Source: an uncultured Alphaproteobacteria bacterium (GTDB lineage: Bacteria > Pseudomonadota > Alphaproteobacteria > MPNO01 > UBA2964). Taken from it: DNA of 64,000 bases. The stretch covers positions 2,058,335-2,122,334 of the forward strand of contig OX638326.1 of NCBI GenBank assembly GCA_951812775.1, given 5' to 3'. The notes beneath the pieces are model-generated. The model did no database searches. It saw only the letters and a list, made by a program, of their open reading frames with translations, and had not been told where the DNA came from. Positions within the stretch are counted from its first letter, which is position 1. Each line of letters starts with the position of its first letter. Below, piece by piece: positions 5,350 to 15,582 of the stretch. The position numbers and the translations under genes are program-made.

Positions 5350-6747
5350 TCAGCCCTTCGCCAACCCTTTGCGACATTGGGTCATGATGTCCAGGACCTT
5401 AAACGGGTCTTCAATCCGCGGAAATGTCGGCACTCCCTTTGGTTCCAGAAAGGCCTTGGCGGCAGCGTTGCTATTCTCATCTCCTGAAAAGGAGACATAA
5501 ATCGGTTTGTCGGGAAATCTCTTTTTCTGATCAACAATGAAATCCAGCTTCATCTCTCCCAGCTCGTCCGCAAGAATTAAAATCGTGACGATGGAATCTA
5601 CATTGGGATCCTTCAACAAGGCGGTCATCGCCTCGCGCCAGGCAAACTCCATTCCATTGACCGTCGCAGAAGGAAAAACATCAACCGGATTCGTGATGTT
5701 GATAAATGGCGGGCTGATTTCTCCAAGCCGTTTCTGTGTCTTTGAAGTTACCTTGGCAAATTCCAACCCCGTGCGCTGCTTACAGATATCCAAGATGTGG
5801 ACAATAAAAGCGCCCGAAGGCGAAACAAATCCGACGCGATTGCCGGCGGGAACAGGCATCATCGCCGCCGCCTTTGCGGCAGTGAACAGGTGGGTAAATT
5901 CATCAATGCGGACGACACCAGCCTGTTTCAACGCGCCATCAAGAATATTGTCATCCGACCCTAGCGACGCCGTGTGCGACATCGCCGCCTTTGCTCCATC
6001 TTCGGTAGCGCCACCTTTGAGCATGACGACGGGTTTCTTCTTAGTAACCTTGCGGGCAATTTTCAGGAATTCCTGTGGCCGGCGAAGGCTTTCCAAATAA
6101 ACAAAGATGGCGCCGGTCTCAGGATCGTCAGCCAGAAATTCCAGAATATCCGCCTCATCAATATCCACTGCGTTGCCGAGACCGATACAACGTGCGACGC
6201 CGTAATGTTCACCCGACATGATGGAGCGCATCATCGCACCAGTGAAATTACCGGTTTGCGCAATATAGGAAATCGGACCCTTCGGTATGTCTCCTAGTGG
6301 AAAAAAACTGGATGTAAAATTCGCCGGGGTTGAAATATGCCCGGCGGTATTGGGCCCAAGGACCCGAACACCTGTCCGCTCGATGACCTCTTTTAACTCT
6401 GCTTGAAGATCTTCACCGGCATGATCCACTTCCGCAAAACCACCTGCCGCCAATACGACGGATTGAATACCTCGCTCAGCGCAATCGGCAATTGCCTGTG
6501 GCGTTTGCGCCGCGGGCAACATAACGATCCCCATATCCACGCCCTTTGGAAGATCGGAAATAGTCTCCGAAACCGCAAAACCACATATTTCTCCGCCGCG
6601 TGGGTTTACCGGATGAATCTTGCCCTTAAACCCGTTGGCAACAAGATTTTCAATAACCGTACGTCCGGGTTTACCGGGCGTCGCGGAAGCCCCCACCACT
6701 GCGACCGAGCGGGGGGCGAAGAAAGACGCAAGTTTTGATTTAGACAC
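5350..6747 (-). CDS. Acyl-CoA synthetase (NDP-forming), CoA-binding/ligase half
   Basis: 465-residue protein of the ADP-forming acetyl-CoA synthetase/succinyl-CoA ligase type, which makes or uses an acyl-CoA with a nucleoside di/triphosphate. An N-terminal CoA-binding Rossmann domain (FFAPRSVAVVGASATPGKPG, then HPVNPRGGEICG) precedes two flavodoxin-like ligase domains. MSHTASLGSDD contains the expected catalytic histidine. I chose GTG 6747 because homology begins there (SKSKLASFFAPRS); the frame stays open to 7059, but that part runs antisense through the divergent hydrolase gene and looks non-coding. The ATP-grasp beta domain, fused in many homologues, is absent and no separate beta subunit gene is in the window. 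Confidence 0.85.
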   Translation of the reverse strand: MSKSKLASFFAPRSVAVVGASATPGKPGRTVIENLVANGFKGKIHPVNPRGGEICGFAVSETISDLPKGVDMGIVMLPAAQTPQAIADCAERGIQSVVLAAGGFAEVDHAGEDLQAELKEVIERTGVRVLGPNTAGHISTPANFTSSFFPLGDIPKGPISYIAQTGNFTGAMMRSIMSGEHYGVARCIGLGNAVDIDEADILEFLADDPETGAIFVYLESLRRPQEFLKIARKVTKKKPVVMLKGGATEDGAKAAMSHTASLGSDDNILDGALKQAGVVRIDEFTHLFTAAKAAAMMPVPAGNRVGFVSPSGAFIVHILDICKQRTGLEFAKVTSKTQKRLGEISPPFINITNPVDVFPSATVNGMEFAWREAMTALLKDPNVDSIVTILILADELGEMKLDFIVDQKKRFPDKPIYVSFSGDENSNAAAKAFLEPKGVPTFPRIEDPFKVLDIMTQCRKGLAKG

Positions 6748-6846
6748 AAAGGAACCTGTTTTAGAATTTCGCCGCGGAGCATAGCGAATTCGTCGAAAGC
6801 GCGATAGGCTTATGCAAATCCATCGATAGAGCACGAGGTATAGAGA

Positions 6847-7569
6847 ATGTCGTATGAAGTCGTCACTCTGGACGTACAGGGCAGCGCTATGGATTGTCTT
6901 GTCTTTAAACCGGAAGGAAGCGGCCCGTTTCCTGGCGTCATCGCTGCCCAACATATCCCCAATGCCCATGACGGGTTGGAAGCCGACCCTTTTACGATCG
7001 ACATAGGCGACAAGTTCGCGGCAAAAGGATATGCCTGTGTCATCCCCTTCATTTTCCACTGGTGGCCAGCCGGTACCGATCTGGCGATAAAACGCGAGGA
7101 ATGGGACGATGCAAAGACCGTTGCGGATCTTGATGCAGCATTTGGCTTACTTACCAATATTGATGGAATCGACACGGACCGAATTGCCATCATGGGCCAT
7201 TGTTGGGGTGGACGTATGTCCTGGCTAGGCGCCTGTCACAATCCGCAATACAAGGTTTTGGGCACGCTCTATGGTGGGCGTATCAAGGTTGGCATGGGTG
7301 AGGGTAACCCATCGCCGATCGATCTTGTGAACAAGATGAACTGTTCCGTCATCGGAATTTTTGGCAAAGAGGATCAAAACCCCTCTCAGGAAGATGTTGC
7401 GGATCTCGATACAGCGCTCTCCGCCGCGGGGATCGAACACGAGTTCCACAGCTATGATGGCGCCGGCCACGGATTTCAGGACTTTGTTTCGGAAGACCGA
7501 TACCGCCCCGAAGCGACGGAGGATTCATGGGCAAAACTGTTTGCCTATTTTGACGCTCGCCTGCAATAG
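6847..7569 (+). CDS. Dienelactone hydrolase family protein
   Basis: 240-residue alpha/beta hydrolase of the carboxymethylenebutenolidase family. The nucleophile elbow is GHCWGG with Cys119, replacing serine as is normal for this family. The other triad members are probably the Asp in FGKEDQNPS and the His in GAGHGFQDF. The family opens lactone or ester rings, for example dienelactone in chloroaromatic breakdown, but many members have unknown substrates. Its start is 99 bases from the divergent acyl-CoA synthetase start. It ends in TAG just before the TPP riboswitch, so it lies outside that operon. No signal peptide is seen. Confidence 0.9.
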   Translation: MSYEVVTLDVQGSAMDCLVFKPEGSGPFPGVIAAQHIPNAHDGLEADPFTIDIGDKFAAKGYACVIPFIFHWWPAGTDLAIKREEWDDAKTVADLDAAFGLLTNIDGIDTDRIAIMGHCWGGRMSWLGACHNPQYKVLGTLYGGRIKVGMGEGNPSPIDLVNKMNCSVIGIFGKEDQNPSQEDVADLDTALSAAGIEHEFHSYDGAGHGFQDFVSEDRYRPEATEDSWAKLFAYFDARLQ

Positions 7570-7622
7570 GTCATACAGGGTCCGCTTGACCTTCAATCAG
7601 TGTCAGCCATAATAATTACCTG

Positions 7623-7731
7623 TTCCCAGGGGAGCCTCGCTGGGAGGCTGAGATCCCGCCGGTATTGCCGTCATAAGCAATACAATGCGGAGACCCTTCG
7701 AACCTGATCCGGGTTATGCCGGCGTAGGGAA
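7623..7731 (+). promoter_or_regulatory. TPP riboswitch (thi-box)
   Basis: The aptamer core is explicit: GGGGAGCC, then GGCTGAGATCCCGCC near 7646, then GACCCTTCGAACCTGATCCG and GGGTTATGCCGGCGTAGGGA across 7692-7730. The closing P1 stem is TTCCC (7623-7627) with GGGAA (7727-7731). A variable P3 hairpin is formed by GTATTGC and GCAATAC. It is on the plus strand, 85 bases before the GTG of the luxE-like gene, and nothing else lies between. After the aptamer, AAGGGAT can pair with ATCCCCTT, but there is no T-tract, so control of translation rather than termination is likelier. TPP riboswitches normally switch genes off when thiamine diphosphate is plentiful. Confidence 0.96.
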
Positions 7732-7816
7732 AGGGATATCGCGCAACATTCATCCCCTTCTCCGCATACCGGTTTTCTGAGTCAGTACGTCGATTACTGT
7801 ATGAAGGTGGTGTTTC

Positions 7817-8896
7817 GTGACCGAGGCGCAGATTATTGAGACTTTGCTGGAATTTATCGCTGCCGATAGCGCTGGCGAGAACGAATTCAACGCGTTCGCG
7901 TTACAGATATTTGCCTATCAATTTGAAAATAATGCACCCTATCAACGCTTTTGCCGCCAGCGCGAAAAAACACCACGTACGGTTCATTCCTGGCAAGCTA
8001 TCCCTGCGGTTCCCATCAACGGATACAAATATCTAACTCTTACCTGCTGCGACCCAGAAGTTGCTGAACGCGTTTTCATGACCAGTGGGACCACAAAAGA
8101 CGGCGTCCGAGGCAAATGCCACCATCCGACCCTGGAGGTATATGACGCTTCAATGACCACAGCCTTCCGGCAACGATTTATGCAGGACCACGACACCATA
8201 CGGATGGGCATATTATTTCCGACGGAACAGGCGATGCCCAACTCTTCTTTGGCACACTATCTGGCGTTGGCGCTCAGTGAATTTGGATCGGAGGGTAGCC
8301 GCTACCTCCTGACTGATGATGGGCTGGACATCGAACAACTCTTCTCTGAGTTGGACCGAGCGGTGCAAACAGGTGAACCCTATGCTCTCCTTGGGGCAAG
8401 CTTTAGCTTTGTGCACATCATGGACGAGATGGAACGTCTTGGGAAATCAGTAAATCTACCCCAAGGCAGCAGGATTCTCGATACAGGTGGGTTTAAAGGG
8501 CAGTCCCGCGAACTGGAACTCGACGAGTTCTACGATCTACTTCAAGCCCGCTTTGGGGTTCCCCGGGATCAATGCATCAATATGTATGGCATGACCGAGC
8601 TTAGCACCGAGTTCTATGATTGGGGAAACTCAACCTGTCCCTCCGTTAAATCCGGCCCGCACTGGATACGCAGCCGGATCGTCAATCCATTGACCGGCCT
8701 AGAGCTCCCGAAAGGAGAAATGGGTGTTCTCGTCCATTGTGATCTGGCCCATTTCAATTGTGTCTCTTCAATCCTGACCGAAGATGCCGGCATTGAGGTC
8801 GACAATGGATTCCTGTTACTGGGGCGCGCGGAAGGCGCCGAAGCAAAGGGGTGTTCGATGGCGGTCGACGAGTTCCTGAAGGCGGCACAAGGATAA
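7817..8896 (+). CDS. LuxE-like acyl-protein synthetase under TPP riboswitch control
   Basis: 359 residues from a GTG start preceded by AAGGTGGT. LuxE enzymes activate a carboxylic acid with ATP to acyl-AMP and move it to a C-terminal cysteine, from which it passes to LuxC. Visible are the adenylate-forming loop MTSGTTKDGVRGK, the YGMTELSTEFYDW motif typical of the ANL superfamily, and a C-terminal AKGCSMAVDE whose Cys346 corresponds to the acyl-accepting cysteine of LuxE. The next gene starts four bases after its stop and encodes the matching LuxC-type reductase. No luciferase genes are nearby, so light production is not the role. The riboswitch points to a thiamine-related acid as substrate (inference). 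Confidence 0.88.
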   Translation: MTEAQIIETLLEFIAADSAGENEFNAFALQIFAYQFENNAPYQRFCRQREKTPRTVHSWQAIPAVPINGYKYLTLTCCDPEVAERVFMTSGTTKDGVRGKCHHPTLEVYDASMTTAFRQRFMQDHDTIRMGILFPTEQAMPNSSLAHYLALALSEFGSEGSRYLLTDDGLDIEQLFSELDRAVQTGEPYALLGASFSFVHIMDEMERLGKSVNLPQGSRILDTGGFKGQSRELELDEFYDLLQARFGVPRDQCINMYGMTELSTEFYDWGNSTCPSVKSGPHWIRSRIVNPLTGLELPKGEMGVLVHCDLAHFNCVSSILTEDAGIEVDNGFLLLGRAEGAEAKGCSMAVDEFLKAAQG

Positions 8897-8900
8897 TCAG

Positions 8901-10352
8901 ATGACACTGAAAGCAGGATATCTCCCCGGTGTAAGCGACGACGATATTGAATGGCAAACACTAAGCTATAACCGCGACGGACAAGCGATTGACGTACGGG
9001 TACCGCTACTCAGCGATGAGCAGATGAAACACTTGTCAGCGCATATCAAGGAAAAGAGTCGGCATTATTTAAAATCGCTGCCGGTATCGGACATTACAGC
9101 CATTATCGACACCGCAATCACCCGACTTCTGGATCGCAACAACGCCTATCGCCAACAAGCGGAGGAGTACCTGCCGCTCATCACCGGATATGATGCCGAA
9201 ATGATCCGGTTGGGGCTAACCGGCTATCTCAAAACGTTCCGTCAGCCCGAACTTCGTCGATTTATCGCCGAGGACTTTGCAAACCCAAAGTTACTTGATG
9301 AATTCCAGCCACTGCCAAAGGGCGGATATGGTAGGGCCTACGGGCCTGACCTCCTCGCCCATATTTGGGCGGGGAACGTTCCCGGCCTGCCGCTATGGAG
9401 CCTCATTTCGGGTTTGCTGGTAAAGGCCGGAAATATTGGCAAGGTCGCAAGCGCGGAGCCCCTCATGGCGAGCTGGTTTACACAGCTGATCGCCGAAATT
9501 GATCCCGAACTTGGTGAATGCCTCGCTGTGGTCTGGTGGAAGGGCGGCGATGTCGAGCAGGAACAGGCTCTGCTCAATCAGGCTGACCTCGTAGTAGCCT
9601 ACGGCAATAACGAGACACTACAACAGATCCGTGATCGCACACCTATTACAACCCGCTGTCTCACATACAGCCACAAAGTCAGCTTTGGTATGATCTCCAA
9701 AACCGCCCTCGATATGGGCAAAGCCTGGGAAGTTGCCCATCAGGCGGCTTTTGACATTGTCCGCTACGACCAGCAGGGCTGTTATTCGCCGCACGTTTTC
9801 TTTGTCGAGCGTGGTGGAGCTGTAACGCCGCAGGAGTTCTCGCAATACGTTGCGAATGAACTGGATTGTTTCGAGGAGAAATACCCTCGGCGGACACTGA
9901 CCATCGAAGAGGCCGGCGGCGTAGCGGCATGGCGGCAATCGGAGGAAATGAAGGCCTTCGCCGACGAAAGCAACTCTCTTATAAGCAATGATGGGGGTAC
10001 CTGGAGCATTGCCTATTCAGCAGCCGTTGAGGATTTGGTGCCCTCTGGCCTAAATCGAACTGCCAAGGTTATCGCCGTCGACCAACTGGATGACGTCGCG
10101 GCCCGGATAGCGCCGTATAAGGCTTTCCTGCAGACCGTCGGTGTCGCAGCACCACCGGCGGAGTTACATCGCCTCGCTGGGTTGCTGGGAGCCGTCGGCG
10201 TGACCCGGATCAGCGCCCTTGAACATATGACCACGCCGGAAGCAGGATGGCACCATGACGGCCGATTTAACCTTCTCGACCTCGTGACAATGACAGAAGT
10301 CGAACGATCAGCTGAAATCGCCTCTGAGGCATTCCCAAACTATGTTGACTGA
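8901..10352 (+). CDS. LuxC-like acyl reductase (acyl-enzyme to aldehyde)
   Basis: 483-residue member of the LuxC family within the aldehyde dehydrogenase superfamily. LuxC accepts the acyl group from LuxE on a cysteine and reduces it with NADPH to an aldehyde. Here YDQQGCYSPHVFF places the catalytic cysteine at position 294; the Rossmann part includes HIWAGNVPGLPLWSLISGLL and LVVAYGNNETL. It follows the luxE-like gene after four bases, so the two are surely cotranscribed. The classical LuxCE pair makes long-chain aldehydes, but this pair is preceded by a TPP riboswitch. This argues for a different acid, for example an oxidised thiamine, thiazole or pyrimidine carboxylate (hypothesis). Confidence 0.9.
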   Translation: MTLKAGYLPGVSDDDIEWQTLSYNRDGQAIDVRVPLLSDEQMKHLSAHIKEKSRHYLKSLPVSDITAIIDTAITRLLDRNNAYRQQAEEYLPLITGYDAEMIRLGLTGYLKTFRQPELRRFIAEDFANPKLLDEFQPLPKGGYGRAYGPDLLAHIWAGNVPGLPLWSLISGLLVKAGNIGKVASAEPLMASWFTQLIAEIDPELGECLAVVWWKGGDVEQEQALLNQADLVVAYGNNETLQQIRDRTPITTRCLTYSHKVSFGMISKTALDMGKAWEVAHQAAFDIVRYDQQGCYSPHVFFVERGGAVTPQEFSQYVANELDCFEEKYPRRTLTIEEAGGVAAWRQSEEMKAFADESNSLISNDGGTWSIAYSAAVEDLVPSGLNRTAKVIAVDQLDDVAARIAPYKAFLQTVGVAAPPAELHRLAGLLGAVGVTRISALEHMTTPEAGWHHDGRFNLLDLVTMTEVERSAEIASEAFPNYVD

Positions 10353-10501
10353 GCGAAGGGACAATGGTGTCTCATCAATGACAACCGATTGCCATCAAAG
10401 CGCCGTCATTTCGTTAGACATGGTCAATTTCGGTCTTTTGGTGAGGTTTTCAGTATCATAGAGTCAATCGATGACAAGATTTGGAAATTGGATTTAATCC
10501 G

Positions 10502-11269
10502 ATGAATTTTGCAGGAAAAGTCGTCCTTGTGACCGGCTCAAGCCGCGGTATTGGTGCTGCCATAGCCGAGGCTTTTGCCGCTGAAGGTGCAACTGTTGTC
10601 GTCAACTATGTCCAAAATGCCAGCGCCGCAGAAGACGTCGTTGCCAAATGCAAAGAGGTTGGCGGTGACGCAACGGCCATTCAGGCAGATGTAACATCTG
10701 GCGAACAAATTCAGTTGCTGGTCGACCAATCATTGCAGGATTTCGCTAAGATCGACGTCGTGGTCAATAACGCCTTCAAGCCCTACACCTTCGACCCCGA
10801 TAACCGGAAGCAATTTGCGGATCTCGATTGGCAAGACTATCAGGGTCAGATCGACGGAGCGTTATTCTCTACTTACACGATGTGTCAGGCGGTACTCCCT
10901 GCCCTAAAAAAACGAACCCAGGGAAGTATCATTAATATTGCAAGCGACCTTGTCGCCCGTCCAACAATCCCCTACCACGATTACACAACCGCCAAATCGG
11001 CCCTGATAGGATTTAGCCGAAATCTCGCAGCAGAACTTGGGCCCCTCGGTATTCGAGTAAATTGTGTCGCCCCGGGCCTGGTATATCCCACCGATGCAAG
11101 CCGCAAGACCAAGGAACGCATCAAGGAAATGATTATCGCCCAAACACCGATGCGTCGCATCGCTTCACCGGAAGATGTCACGGGCCCCGTCCTGTTTCTT
11201 GCCTCCGACTGGAGCCGGTTTATGACTGGTCAGACACTTTATGTTGACGGCGGATTGGTGATGAAATGA
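10502..11269 (+). CDS. SDR family oxidoreductase (FabG-like)
   Basis: 255-residue classical short-chain dehydrogenase/reductase. TGSSRGIG (residues 11-18) binds the cofactor, NNAF is the structural motif, and Ser148, Tyr161 and Lys165 (YTTAK) form the catalytic triad; the C-terminal MTGQTLYVDGG is typical of FabG-like proteins. I chose ATG 10502, with GGA nine bases before it, over a TTG seven codons upstream, because the fold starts right there. It lies 149 bases after the luxC-like gene on the same strand and probably reduces the aldehyde made by LuxC to an alcohol (inference). Its last codons overlap the next start as ATGA. The 149-base gap could hold a second promoter. Confidence 0.88.
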   Translation: MNFAGKVVLVTGSSRGIGAAIAEAFAAEGATVVVNYVQNASAAEDVVAKCKEVGGDATAIQADVTSGEQIQLLVDQSLQDFAKIDVVVNNAFKPYTFDPDNRKQFADLDWQDYQGQIDGALFSTYTMCQAVLPALKKRTQGSIINIASDLVARPTIPYHDYTTAKSALIGFSRNLAAELGPLGIRVNCVAPGLVYPTDASRKTKERIKEMIIAQTPMRRIASPEDVTGPVLFLASDWSRFMTGQTLYVDGGLVMK

Positions 11270-11814
11270 AGACTCGAATGCGCAAAATTCTCCAGCTCAT
11301 CTGCCTTTTCGCCCTCATTGCAAGCGCCCAGACTGTTTCCTCACCAGCGAGTGCCTTTTGCGTCATAAACAAATGGAAAGAGACAATTCACGGCAGGCTT
11401 AAAACCTATAATCCCCTGGGAAATTTTCATCGCATGATCAAAGCCAATGAACAGGCCTGTTGCGAATGGTTTGACCGGAGTTGCAATCCCACAGCATCCC
11501 GCACCGGCCAGTTGGTTTTTGACATCCGGAGCCGGAGCAAAAAACCCAAGGAATTTTATTGCTCAACCGGCTTACAGAAACGTGTACCAGCCGTTGGTGG
11601 TGGAAAGATTACTGTTGAGGAAAGCATCACCCGGATTGGGGGACTTAAATGCAACAGCATCGATTATCTTTCCCGCCCTGTACAGAACACCTTACCGCCA
11701 AACAACTATGGCGTACCGATCTTCAGCGTTCCGAACCAGATCGCCCCGCCGGGTAATAGCGAAGCGGAAAAAGAAAATTCCGGTGCACCCACCACCGCAC
11801 CAACAGCTCCATAA
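11266..11814 (+). CDS. Secreted cysteine-containing protein of unknown function
   Basis: 182 residues with a clear Sec signal peptide: basic MKTRMRK, a hydrophobic stretch, then a signal peptidase I site after SPASA. The mature part has conserved-looking cysteines (FCVINKW, ACCEWFDRSC, EFYCSTG, LKCNS) suggesting disulphides in the periplasm, and ends in a proline/threonine/alanine-rich tail. I do not recognise the family. The start overlaps the SDR stop by four bases (ATGA), so translation is coupled to the operon that begins at the TPP riboswitch. It may therefore be a periplasmic partner of that pathway, such as a binding protein, but nothing in the sequence shows this. It ends three bases before the convergent metH stop. 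Confidence 0.75.
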   Translation: MKTRMRKILQLICLFALIASAQTVSSPASAFCVINKWKETIHGRLKTYNPLGNFHRMIKANEQACCEWFDRSCNPTASRTGQLVFDIRSRSKKPKEFYCSTGLQKRVPAVGGGKITVEESITRIGGLKCNSIDYLSRPVQNTLPPNNYGVPIFSVPNQIAPPGNSEAEKENSGAPTTAPTAP

Positions 11815-11817
11815 ACT

Positions 11818-14800
11818 TCAGGGATTGTACCCGAGGTTCGGAGCCAGCCAGCGTTCCATTTCCTCAAACGCCATATCTTTACGCCGGGCGTAATCCTCGA
11901 CCTGATCGCGATTAATCTTACCCACACCAAAATAATGCGCTTCAGGATTCCAGAAGTACCAACCTGAAACCGCCGCACCTGGATGCATTGCAAATGATTC
12001 CGTCAATGTAATTCCCAACCGATCCGCATCAAGGAGACGAAACAGCGTTTCTTTTTCCGTATGATCAGGACAGGCGGGATAACCCGGCGCAGGGCGAATA
12101 CCCTGGTAACGCTCCTGAATCAGATCTTCATTCTCGATAGCCTCATCGCGTGCGAAGCCCCAATACTCTTTACGAACTCGCTCATGCAACCGTTCGGCAA
12201 ATGCTTCCGCCAAGCGATCCGCCAACGCTTTGATCATAATCGCATTATAGTCGTCATTATCCGCTTCATACTGCGCTGCCAGCTCATCAGCGCCAAAGAT
12301 AGCAACCGAAAAACCACCGAACCAATCAGCAATACCTGTTTCCTTAGGCGCAACGAAGTCTGCGAGCGCATAATGCGGACGACCAGCAGATTTCTTCCCC
12401 TGCTGACGCAGGGTATGGACCGTAGCCAGAATTTCCGCGCGTTTAACGTCATCGTAGAGCATGATGTCATCGCCATCGGCGTTGGCCGGCCAAAAGCCAA
12501 TCATGCCTCGAGCGGTAAGCAGTCCCTCCGAGACAATTTTTTCCAGCATTTGACGACCATCAGCAAACAGGCTCCTTGCTGATTCACCAATGACGTCATC
12601 CTCCAGGATTCGCGGATACGCGCCATGCAGTTCCCAAGCATGGAAAAACGGCGTCCAGTCAATCCGGGCAACCAGTTCCTCCAGCGGATAATCTTCAAAA
12701 TCCCAAGTACCGAGGAGTTTCGGTCGCGGCGGCAACACTTCGGACCAATCAATCGCAAACTTATTGGCCCGGGCGTCTTCTACTGAAACGCCGCGCTCGC
12801 CATCATCGGCTCCTTCATAGCGGGCACGCACTGTCTCATAATCTTCACGTACAGACTGAACGAAAGGTTCACGACCATCTTCCGAGGTCAGTGATGAAAC
12901 GACTCCCACACTTCGAGAGGCATCAAGGACATGTACCACAGGCGCATGGTAAGCAGGTTCAATCTTAACCGCCGTATGAACCTTGGACGTGGTCGCACCG
13001 CCGATCAGCAATGGCAACTCAAGCCCTTGCCGTTCCATTTCCGAAGCGACATGCACCATTTCGTCGAGAGACGGCGTGATAAGCCCGGAAAGGCCAATCA
13101 CATCGGCCTTCTCTTCAATAGCCGTATCAAGAATTTTTTGTGCCGGGACCATAACCCCGAGATCAATAACCTCGTAATTATTGCACTGCATGACGACGCC
13201 AACGATGTTCTTGCCAATATCATGGACATCGCCTTTTACCGTCGCCATGACAATCTTACCTTTGGCCTGTTGGGCAAGACCTGATTTCTCTTTCTCTTCT
13301 TCGATAAAAGGAATGAGGTGACCAACTGCCTGCTTCATGACGCGGGCGCTTTTAACAACCTGGGGCAAGAACATTTTGCCAGCGCCGAACAGATCGCCGA
13401 CAACATTCATGCCGTCCATAAGCGGCCCTTCTATGACTTCAATAGGGCGATCAAAGAGCAGTCTGGCTTCTTCCGTATCTTCAATGACGTAGGCATTTAT
13501 GCCGTTGACCAACGCGTGGCTCAAACGTTCTGCGACGGGGGCTTCACGCCAGGAGATATCTTCTTCCTTTGCCGTCCCGCCACCAACAAACTGATCGGCA
13601 ACTTCGAGTAAACGTTCGGTTGCATCGTCACGACGATTTAGAATGACATCTTCAACACGCTCTCTAAGGTCGTCAGGAATATCCGCATAAACAGTCAGTT
13701 GCCCTGCATTGACGATACCCATCGTCATGCCTGCTTCGACCGCGTAATACAGAAAAACCGAATGCATCGCGCGGCGAACCGGCTCATTACCGCGAAATGA
13801 GAACGATATGTTGCTTAAACCACCGGAAACCTGAACATGGGGCAAGGTTTCACGAATGCGCCTCGTTGCCTCGATGAAATCGACGGCGTAGTTATTGTGT
13901 TCTTCAATCCCGGTAGCAACCGCAAAAATATTCGGATCAAAGATAATGTCTTCGGGCGGGAACCCAACCTGATTGACCAAAATATCATAAGCCCGGGCGC
14001 TAATATCCAGCTTGCGTTCTTCCGTATCGGCCTGACCTTCCTCGTCAAACGCCATAACGATCACCGCCGCACCATATCGCCGTACCAATCGTGCTTGCTC
14101 AATAAAGGCCGCCTCACCTTCCTTCATGCTAATGGAATTGACGATTGGTTTGCCTTGAACACATTTTAGTCCGGCTTCAATCACTGACCATTTAGACGAG
14201 TCGATCATTACCGGTACGCGACTAATATCCGGTTCGGCGGCAATTAAATTGAGAAAAGTCACCATCGCCGCTTCAGAATCGAGCAACCCTTCATCCATAT
14301 TGACATCAACAATCTGCGCGCCGTTCTCAACCTGTTGCAACGCAACTTCGGTCGCCGTTTGATAATCATTTTCCTTAATCAGTTTGGCGAACCGAGCAGA
14401 GCCCGTGACATTGGTACGCTCACCGACATTCACAAAGAGTGCATCCGGTCCGATGTTTTGAGGCTCGAGCCCCGATAAACGCAGTTGGCGATCTATCTCG
14501 GGAATTTCACGGGCAGGCAAACCTTCAACCGCATCGGCGATTGCAGCTATGTGATCAGGCGTCGTTCCGCAGCACCCGCCAACCATATTAAGGAAACCCG
14601 ACTGCGCAAACTCACCCAACGTCTCTGCCATCATTTCGGGAGTTTCGTCATATCCGCCAAAAGCATTTGGCAGGCCAGCGTTTGGATGACAGGAGACATG
14701 GGTATCGGCGATACGCGAAAGCTCCACGATATAGGGCCGCAAATCCTTTGCGCCCAACGCACAATTCAGCCCTATTGAAATCGGTTTTGCATGTCGGACC

Positions 14801-15582
14801 GAATTCCAGAAGGCTTCAGTCGTCTGACCGGTTAATGTTCTGCCGCTTTGATCCGTGATCGTGCCCGAAATCATTACAGGCACTTCGAAGTCAAAACCTT
14901 CGACCACACGATCAATGGCAAACAGGGCGGCCTTGCAATTCAGCATATCAAAAACTGTTTCAACCAGGATCAGATCTGCGCCCCCCTCCAGTAGACCCTG
15001 GACAGCTTCAGCGTAGGTCTCGACCAGCTCATCAAACTTTACATTTCGGAAACCGGGATCATTGACATCGGGCGAAATCGAGGCTGTCCGGTTCGTAGGA
15101 CCAAGAACGCCAGCCACAAATCTGGGACGTGTTTCGTCTTGAGCCGTTACAGCATCTGCCGCCTCGCGCGCAAGCCTGGCACCGTCACGGTTCAAATCGA
15201 AAACCGCGTCTTCCATCATATAGTCTGCTTGCGCGATCCGAGTTGAGGAAAAAGTGTTGGTCTCAAGAATATCAACACCAGCCTGAAGATACGCCGTATG
15301 CATATCGCGAATGAGAGCAGGTTGTGTCAAAATCAAAAGATCATTGTTACCTTTGACCGGACAGGGATGATCGGCAAATTGATCCCCTCGAAACGACTTT
15401 TCGGCCAGCTCATGGCCCTGAATCATCGTTCCCATCGCGCCATCGATAACGACAATCCGGTTATCGAGCTGCTCACGTAATTTCCGAACACGTTCCGCAC
15501 GAGTTGCCGGGTCGAGCGCTCCAGGTAAAGCCTCGGATGGCTGGCCAGATTCCTTTAACAACGAGGTACTCGCACTACTCAT
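11818..15582 (-). CDS. metH: Cobalamin-dependent methionine synthase
   Basis: 1254 residues, the full length expected. It transfers the methyl group of 5-methyl-tetrahydrofolate to homocysteine through methylcobalamin. Domains in order: homocysteine-binding barrel ([10 protein letters not shown]; zinc cysteines in LNCALG and [11 protein letters not shown]), pterin-binding barrel ([15 protein letters not shown]), cobalamin-binding cap and Rossmann domain ([10 protein letters not shown], about residue 770, with the cobalt-ligating His), and the SAM-dependent reactivation domain ([15 protein letters not shown]). It starts two bases after the metF stop and is the last gene of an operon with metF and an ArsR-type regulator. 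Its presence means the cell needs cobalamin for this route. No cobalamin riboswitch is seen in front of the operon. Confidence 0.98.

Follow-up and report, generated by a model that had tools for sequence, protein, structure and literature searches.

A TPP riboswitch-controlled luxE-luxC operon as a candidate supply route for the pyrimidine half of thiamine

Introduction

Why does a riboswitch for thiamine pyrophosphate (TPP) stand in front of genes of the luxE and luxC families? The question is raised by a stretch of 64,000 nucleotides, here called the window, from an uncultured alphaproteobacterium (GCA_951812775.1, contig OX638326.1, positions 2,058,335 to 2,122,334, forward strand), whose genome is a single contig of 4.15 Mb and 99.6% complete. 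At window positions 7618-11814, a TPP riboswitch precedes a luxE-like gene, a luxC-like gene and a gene for a short-chain dehydrogenase/reductase (SDR). A sequence-only reading of this DNA suggested that the enzymes reduce an acid to an alcohol and thereby salvage one of three oxidized thiamine pieces: thiamine acetic acid, 4-methylthiazole-5-acetic acid or the pyrimidine 5-carboxylate. The general idea is strongly supported by comparative genomics, but two of the three substrates are disfavored. Quite probably, the operon is repressed by TPP and provides the pyrimidine half of thiamine from a pyrimidine carboxylic acid via LuxE, LuxC and the SDR. Genomes and loci are cited by our own numbers (G and L) where they need to be told apart.

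The riboswitch and the operon

The TPP riboswitch aptamer (THI element) occupies 7618-7748 on the forward strand, as the earlier reading of a complete thi-box directly before luxE had it. The RF00059 covariance model matches over its full length (model positions 1-105) at 69.6 bits (E 1.2e-11), above the gathering score of 54.3, and RF00059 is the sole Rfam family matching at gathering threshold in a scan of the whole 64 kb. Reading of the downstream sequence suggests an expression platform at 7752-7811 on the same strand, in which a CCCCUUC stretch (about 7752-7760) can pair with the ribosome-binding site GAAGGUGGU (7803-7811). Pairing of CCCCUUC with the Shine-Dalgarno sequence GAAGGUGG is present in the minimum-energy fold of the 3' part of the leader (7739-7822), but this fold is not more stable than those of shuffled sequences (z -0.65); sequestration of the Shine-Dalgarno sequence is thus a weak prediction to which folding energy alone lends no support.

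The gene that follows encodes a LuxE-like acid-activating enzyme, or acyl-protein synthetase (7817-8896, forward strand, GTG start, 359 aa), which matches PF04443 with an E value of 1.5e-17 and 64.1 bits against a cut-off of 24.9. The luxC-like acyl reductase gene begins 4 bases past the luxE stop (8901-10352, forward strand, 483 aa), and its product matches PF05893 at 298 bits against a cut-off of 21 (E 1.1e-88). A non-coding gap of 149 bases (10353-10501, forward strand) separates luxC from the SDR oxidoreductase gene (10502-11269, forward strand). The SDR has 255 aa when read from the ATG at 10502, a start that relatives favor over the listed open reading frame start at 10481, and passes the NCBIfam model PRK08642 ('3-oxoacyl-ACP reductase'). 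An early comparative study by Rodionov in 2002 reportedly gave the name oarX to a 3-oxoacyl-ACP reductase under TPP regulation, which could be this SDR. No literature on oarX and thiamin came up in a search.

Conservation of the riboswitch-luxE link

The arrangement recurs far beyond the window. A scan of species genomes gives 65 loci with relatives of the window LuxE, and RF00059 was mapped in 49 genomes, namely 48 from those loci and the window's own. The riboswitch lies directly before luxE (within 300 nt upstream, on the same strand) in 43 of the 49, that is, in 42 of the 48 others and in the window; because it recurs so often, the arrangement is not due to chance. The sequence-only reading had raised the prospect of further luxE-luxC pairs behind TPP riboswitches, and such pairs are the rule in this LuxE clade. 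Three more genomes carry the riboswitch before thiD-luxE (L046, L063 and L064), with L046 and L063 at 53.6 bits, just under the gathering cut-off. No riboswitch is detectable at L021, L062 and L074, nor at the divergent L068 or before LuxE homologues outside the clade (L071, L072 and L076-L078; Bacteroidetes and KSB1). Comamonadaceae copies missed by a simple riboswitch motif search were recovered by the covariance model.

The clade is found in Alpha-, Beta- and Gammaproteobacteria and in Bacilli, often on plasmids, and 11 of 13 genomes of the window's family have this LuxE. Plasmid records add Azospirillum, Pantoea, Pseudomonas, Priestia, Niallia and two lactobacilli, with RF00059 upstream at all seven plasmid loci examined (the Priestia copy, at 49 bits, falls under the cut-off).

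Several individual loci deserve mention. On the Niallia taxi plasmid pMEGANia (L131), two TPP aptamers stand in tandem (5697-5805 and 5884-5993) before an NCS2 permease-luxE-luxC-SDR operon. The order riboswitch-NCS2 permease-luxE-luxC-SDR, with identical protein accessions, occurs at 1390-6321 of L129 (NZ_CP035118.1) and at 2947-7878 of L130 (NZ_CP050546.1); the two plasmids are small (10 and 21 kb) and come from different lactobacilli, and the unit has the look of a mobile vitamin-salvage cassette. The LuxE of L056 (NZ_CACSJA010000031.1, 'Pantoea sp. 18069') groups with Acidovorax, not with other Pantoea, through either horizontal transfer or a mislabeled genome.

Transporters in the wider operon

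The full conserved unit is larger than the window operon shows. Reference proteins were used in tblastn searches to assign gene neighbors. Most relatives have, behind luxE-luxC, genes for an ATP-binding cassette (ABC) ATPase, a permease and a binding protein, which take the place of the window's 149-base gap, and then the SDR gene; the SDR is 55-92% identical and sits in the operon at nearly every locus that reaches far enough. Niallia and two lactobacilli have, instead of the ABC genes, an NCS2 xanthine/uracil-type (nucleobase) permease. The NCS2 group forms a single clade in the LuxE tree, and the tree shows several switches between having and lacking the ABC genes. Those of G018 sit outside the luxE operon under their own TPP riboswitch. 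Both these transporters and the linkage to thiD and thiC set out below had been missed in the first description.

The binding protein of the relatives belongs to PF09084 (NMT1/THI5-like). Its AlphaFold model (pLDDT 85) best matches a thiamin-bound substrate-binding protein (SBP; 4nmy, TM scores 0.80/0.86), next ThiY bound to N-formyl-4-amino-5-aminomethyl-2-methylpyrimidine (FAMP; 3ix1, 0.80/0.85), and then sulfonate binders and yeast Thi5. This ThiY-like protein, its permease and its ATPase are absent from the window's operon and genome. Relocation of the ABC transporter within the window's genome is unsupported, as no orthologue of the binding protein was found anywhere in it.

A second TPP riboswitch in G025 (L137; G025:C5:72540-72649, minus strand) begins an ABC operon of the Liv (branched-chain-amino-acid) type, as judged by reading of translations; this operon is possibly another thiamine-related importer.

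The thiamine gene complement and the substrate

The thiamine genes of the host point to the half of the vitamin that is lacking. A ThiC search that gave matches in 25 of the 49 genomes and 13 of 14 controls gave none in the window's complete genome. Incompleteness of metagenome-assembled genomes affects such absence calls, but not for the window's genome. ThiD and ThiG are present, the latter also in most other genomes. A second riboswitch, at 51.2 bits slightly under the gathering score, precedes thiO-thiS-thiG-thiE without thiC (G000:C1:1663780-1666722; L133 3281-6118, minus strand) and therefore controls the thiazole branch and thiamine monophosphate synthase. With thiazole synthesis and joining present and no known pyrimidine route, the pyrimidine is the missing half. 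Two proteins of the window's genome match the TENA_THI-4 superfamily weakly, at 37 and 29 bits (L134 550-1323 and L135 222-914), and are probably not canonical TenA.

Gene linkage points to the same half. In four loci, thiD shares an operon with luxE and stands 26-44 nt before it; in several Comamonadaceae it converges on the SDR gene; and in G026 (L028) thiC with its own riboswitch stands immediately upstream of the luxE riboswitch. The sequence-only reading had raised co-occurrence with gaps in thi genes: among genomes of the window's order at least 90% complete, ThiC is lacking in 15 of 16 and this LuxE is found in 12 of 16, and across the LuxE genomes as a whole ThiC is present in 25 of 49.

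Salvage of the thiazole, in which 4-methylthiazole-5-acetic acid is reduced to hydroxyethylthiazole, would suit the TPP control and the acid-to-alcohol chemistry. It would need ThiM, however, and neither the window's genome nor nearly any other has it (strong matches are limited to four genomes, of Pantoea and Bosea). The thiOSG genes of the window's genome, moreover, make the thiazole de novo, and ThiG is found in most other genomes. The operon linkage is to thiD and thiC, and thiazole salvage is accordingly highly improbable.

Salvage of the whole vitamin, with thiamine acetic acid reduced to thiamine, again fits the control and the chemistry, and the nearest fold to the modeled binding protein is a thiamin-bound SBP. 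The product would be free thiamine, but thiamin pyrophosphokinase (TPK) has no match in any of the 49 genomes, the window's included, a result that covers TPK and not ThiK, which was not searched for, and leaves room for a TPK in the lactobacilli. The thi gene that shares operons with luxE is thiD, and such a molecule is unlikely to be imported by an NCS2 nucleobase permease. Whole-vitamin salvage is thus rather improbable. Because of the thi gene complement and the linkage to thiD and thiC, both acetic acids are poor candidates.

The pyrimidine 5-carboxylate, the third candidate, is favored by the missing thiC, by a thiD that is present and in some genomes operon-linked, and by transporters of the pyrimidine or nucleobase type. 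The acid whose reduction would give 4-amino-5-hydroxymethyl-2-methylpyrimidine (HMP) is most likely 4-amino-2-methylpyrimidine-5-carboxylic acid, a compound that has been identified among the metabolites of thiamine in rat urine (Neal and Pearson 1964, cited as ref. 144 in PMC7780320). A related possibility is that the cassette handles another pyrimidine-type acid or an internal intermediate and serves as an alternative de novo pyrimidine route, not as salvage of a breakdown product. The reductase core is the invariant part of the unit, and several ThiC-lacking genomes, the window's among them, have the core enzymes without a cognate binding protein, which speaks for such a route. Most copies, however, have an importer of their own, encoded either within the operon or behind a separate TPP riboswitch, and no candidate acid-making enzyme adjoins the cassette, which makes a de novo route unlikely.

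LuxE and LuxC as enzymes

The window LuxE and LuxC match their counterparts in PDB 7xc6. LuxE keeps the adenylating-enzyme motifs TSGTT and YGMTE, and its C-terminal Cys346, the predicted acyl acceptor, aligns with the KGCS cysteine of the 7xc6 LuxE and is found in 69 of 69 aligned rows. The predicted catalytic Cys294 of LuxC, in YDQQ-G-C, aligns with YDQQAC of the 7xc6 LuxC and is found in 64 of 64. We take these two cysteines to be the acyl-carrying residues, as in the established Lux reductase. The LuxE model (pLDDT 90) has PaaK-type aryl-acid adenylating enzymes as its nearest PDB folds, which is compatible with a heteroaromatic acid.

Membership of the LuxE and LuxC families, together with the automatic NCBI annotation of these proteins as long-chain fatty acid-CoA ligases and acyl-CoA reductases, might suggest that they make fatty aldehyde as in bioluminescence, with TPP control either incidental or reporting metabolic stress. 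Against the NCBIfam bioluminescence equivalogs, however, the two proteins score 69.2 and 93.5 bits, where the LuxE and LuxC cut-offs are 550 and 750. Relatives link the pair to thiD, thiC and a thiamin/pyrimidine-type SBP, and the riboswitch is kept across phyla in this clade only. No luxA, luxB or luxD lies beside luxCE among the genes of 5350-15582, in keeping with the earlier remark that luciferase genes are missing nearby. Gene context and equivalog scores lead us to reject fatty aldehyde synthesis of the bioluminescence type, which is very unlikely.

The proposed pathway

An anabolic direction is in keeping with a TPP riboswitch, under which the operon would be expressed at low TPP. The riboswitch, the gene content and its conservation, the catalytic cysteines and the set of thi genes present and missing are observed; the identity of the substrate, the single catalytic steps and the response of the riboswitch are inferred. 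When TPP is low, the riboswitch would permit expression of the operon. LuxE would adenylate a pyrimidine carboxylic acid, most likely 4-amino-2-methylpyrimidine-5-carboxylic acid, an oxidized breakdown product of thiamine, and load the acyl group on Cys346. The acyl group would pass to Cys294 of LuxC, which would use NAD(P)H to form the 5-aldehyde from it, and the SDR would carry out the last reduction to HMP. ThiD would convert HMP to HMP pyrophosphate, which ThiE would join to the thiazole that thiOSG supplies. The acid would enter most relatives through the dedicated ABC importer or the NCS2 permease.

Several points weigh against this pathway. Roughly half of the genomes also have ThiC, and the operon thus does more than stand in for a missing ThiC; in ThiC-bearing genomes the cassette would be an extra supply route, as is usual for salvage systems. 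The absence of the cognate binding protein from the window's genome leaves import there unexplained. The families matched by fold are broad: the modeled SBP is also near to sulfonate binders of the SsuA/TauA type, and any LuxE might resemble PaaK. A different thiamine-related acid matches the genomics nearly equally well, and no literature was found on the occurrence of the carboxylate in the environments of these bacteria. It is moderately likely that LuxE-LuxC and the SDR reduce 4-amino-2-methylpyrimidine-5-carboxylic acid to HMP in a widespread, partly plasmid-borne pathway of Proteobacteria and Bacilli.

Such a pathway would be TPP-controlled precursor salvage that puts known enzyme families to a use of which no description was found in the literature. 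Searches of the papers available returned none that ties LuxE or LuxC to TPP riboswitches or thiamine, in agreement with the sequence-only reading, which knew of no described role of LuxCE in thiamine metabolism. If the pathway is real, the LuxCE pair has a non-luminescent function, LuxE-LuxC proteins outside luminous bacteria gain a defined role, and carboxylate reduction is a new type of chemistry for repair of the thiamine pyrimidine. The pyrimidine precursors usually counted are HMP, 4-amino-5-aminomethyl-2-methylpyrimidine (AmMP) and FAMP. The oxidized pyrimidine carboxylate would then be a further usable vitamer, one that the surveys consulted do not measure. Many bacteria, marine ones included, lack ThiC and rely on pyrimidine precursors (PMC10881298, PMC12442306). 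Bacteria classed as strict HMP auxotrophs could, if the pathway holds, grow on the pyrimidine carboxylate.

Neighboring genes

A gene for a secreted or periplasmic protein (11266-11814, forward strand, 182 aa) overlaps the SDR stop by 4 bases and is translationally coupled to it; the gene coordinates agree with the order first described, from luxC four bases behind luxE to this coupled gene. The protein has an N-terminal signal peptide by inspection and several cysteines, finds no match in family profile searches, and is restricted to the window's genus (L015-L019), where it is 57-74% conserved. The genes of 5350-15582 encode a CoA-binding protein, a DLH hydrolase, LuxE, LuxC, the SDR, the secreted protein and, by reading of its translation, methionine synthase. 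A distant second LuxE-like match (28% identity) lies at the contig end without a riboswitch (L014; G000:C1:4148332-4148913).

Comparison with known systems

Four known systems resemble parts of this one. PaaK-type enzymes, which adenylate aryl acids, supply the PDB folds nearest to the LuxE model, but they form CoA thioesters and share 12-17% sequence identity with LuxE. The HMP phosphate synthase THI5/NMT1 of yeast and Legionella has the fold of the associated binding protein and likewise supplies pyrimidine without ThiC; the THI5-like protein of the relatives, in contrast, is a secreted binding protein whose gene has those of an ABC permease and ATPase as neighbors; the window's genome lacks it.

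The ThiXYZ-YlmB-TenA system, which handles FAMP and AmMP from base-degraded thiamin, shares TPP-controlled import by a binding protein of the NMT1/THI5 fold and the repair of a degraded pyrimidine to HMP. The binding protein of the relatives is about 17% identical to ThiY. Repair in that system proceeds by deformylation and aminohydrolysis, whereas carboxylate reduction is proposed here, and the window's genome shows only the weak TENA_THI-4 superfamily matches, which are probably not canonical TenA.

The closest likeness in the enzymes themselves is to the fatty acid reductase LuxC-LuxE of the luciferase system (7xc6), with which the operon shares both families, the adjacency of luxE and luxC, and the cysteines that carry the acyl group. 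The window and its relatives differ in context, which comprises a TPP riboswitch, thiD, a pyrimidine/thiamin-type transporter and the SDR, in the lack of luciferase genes around the operon, and in scores far below the Lux equivalog cut-offs. Where the Lux enzymes reduce fatty acids, a heteroaromatic acid is the substrate proposed here.

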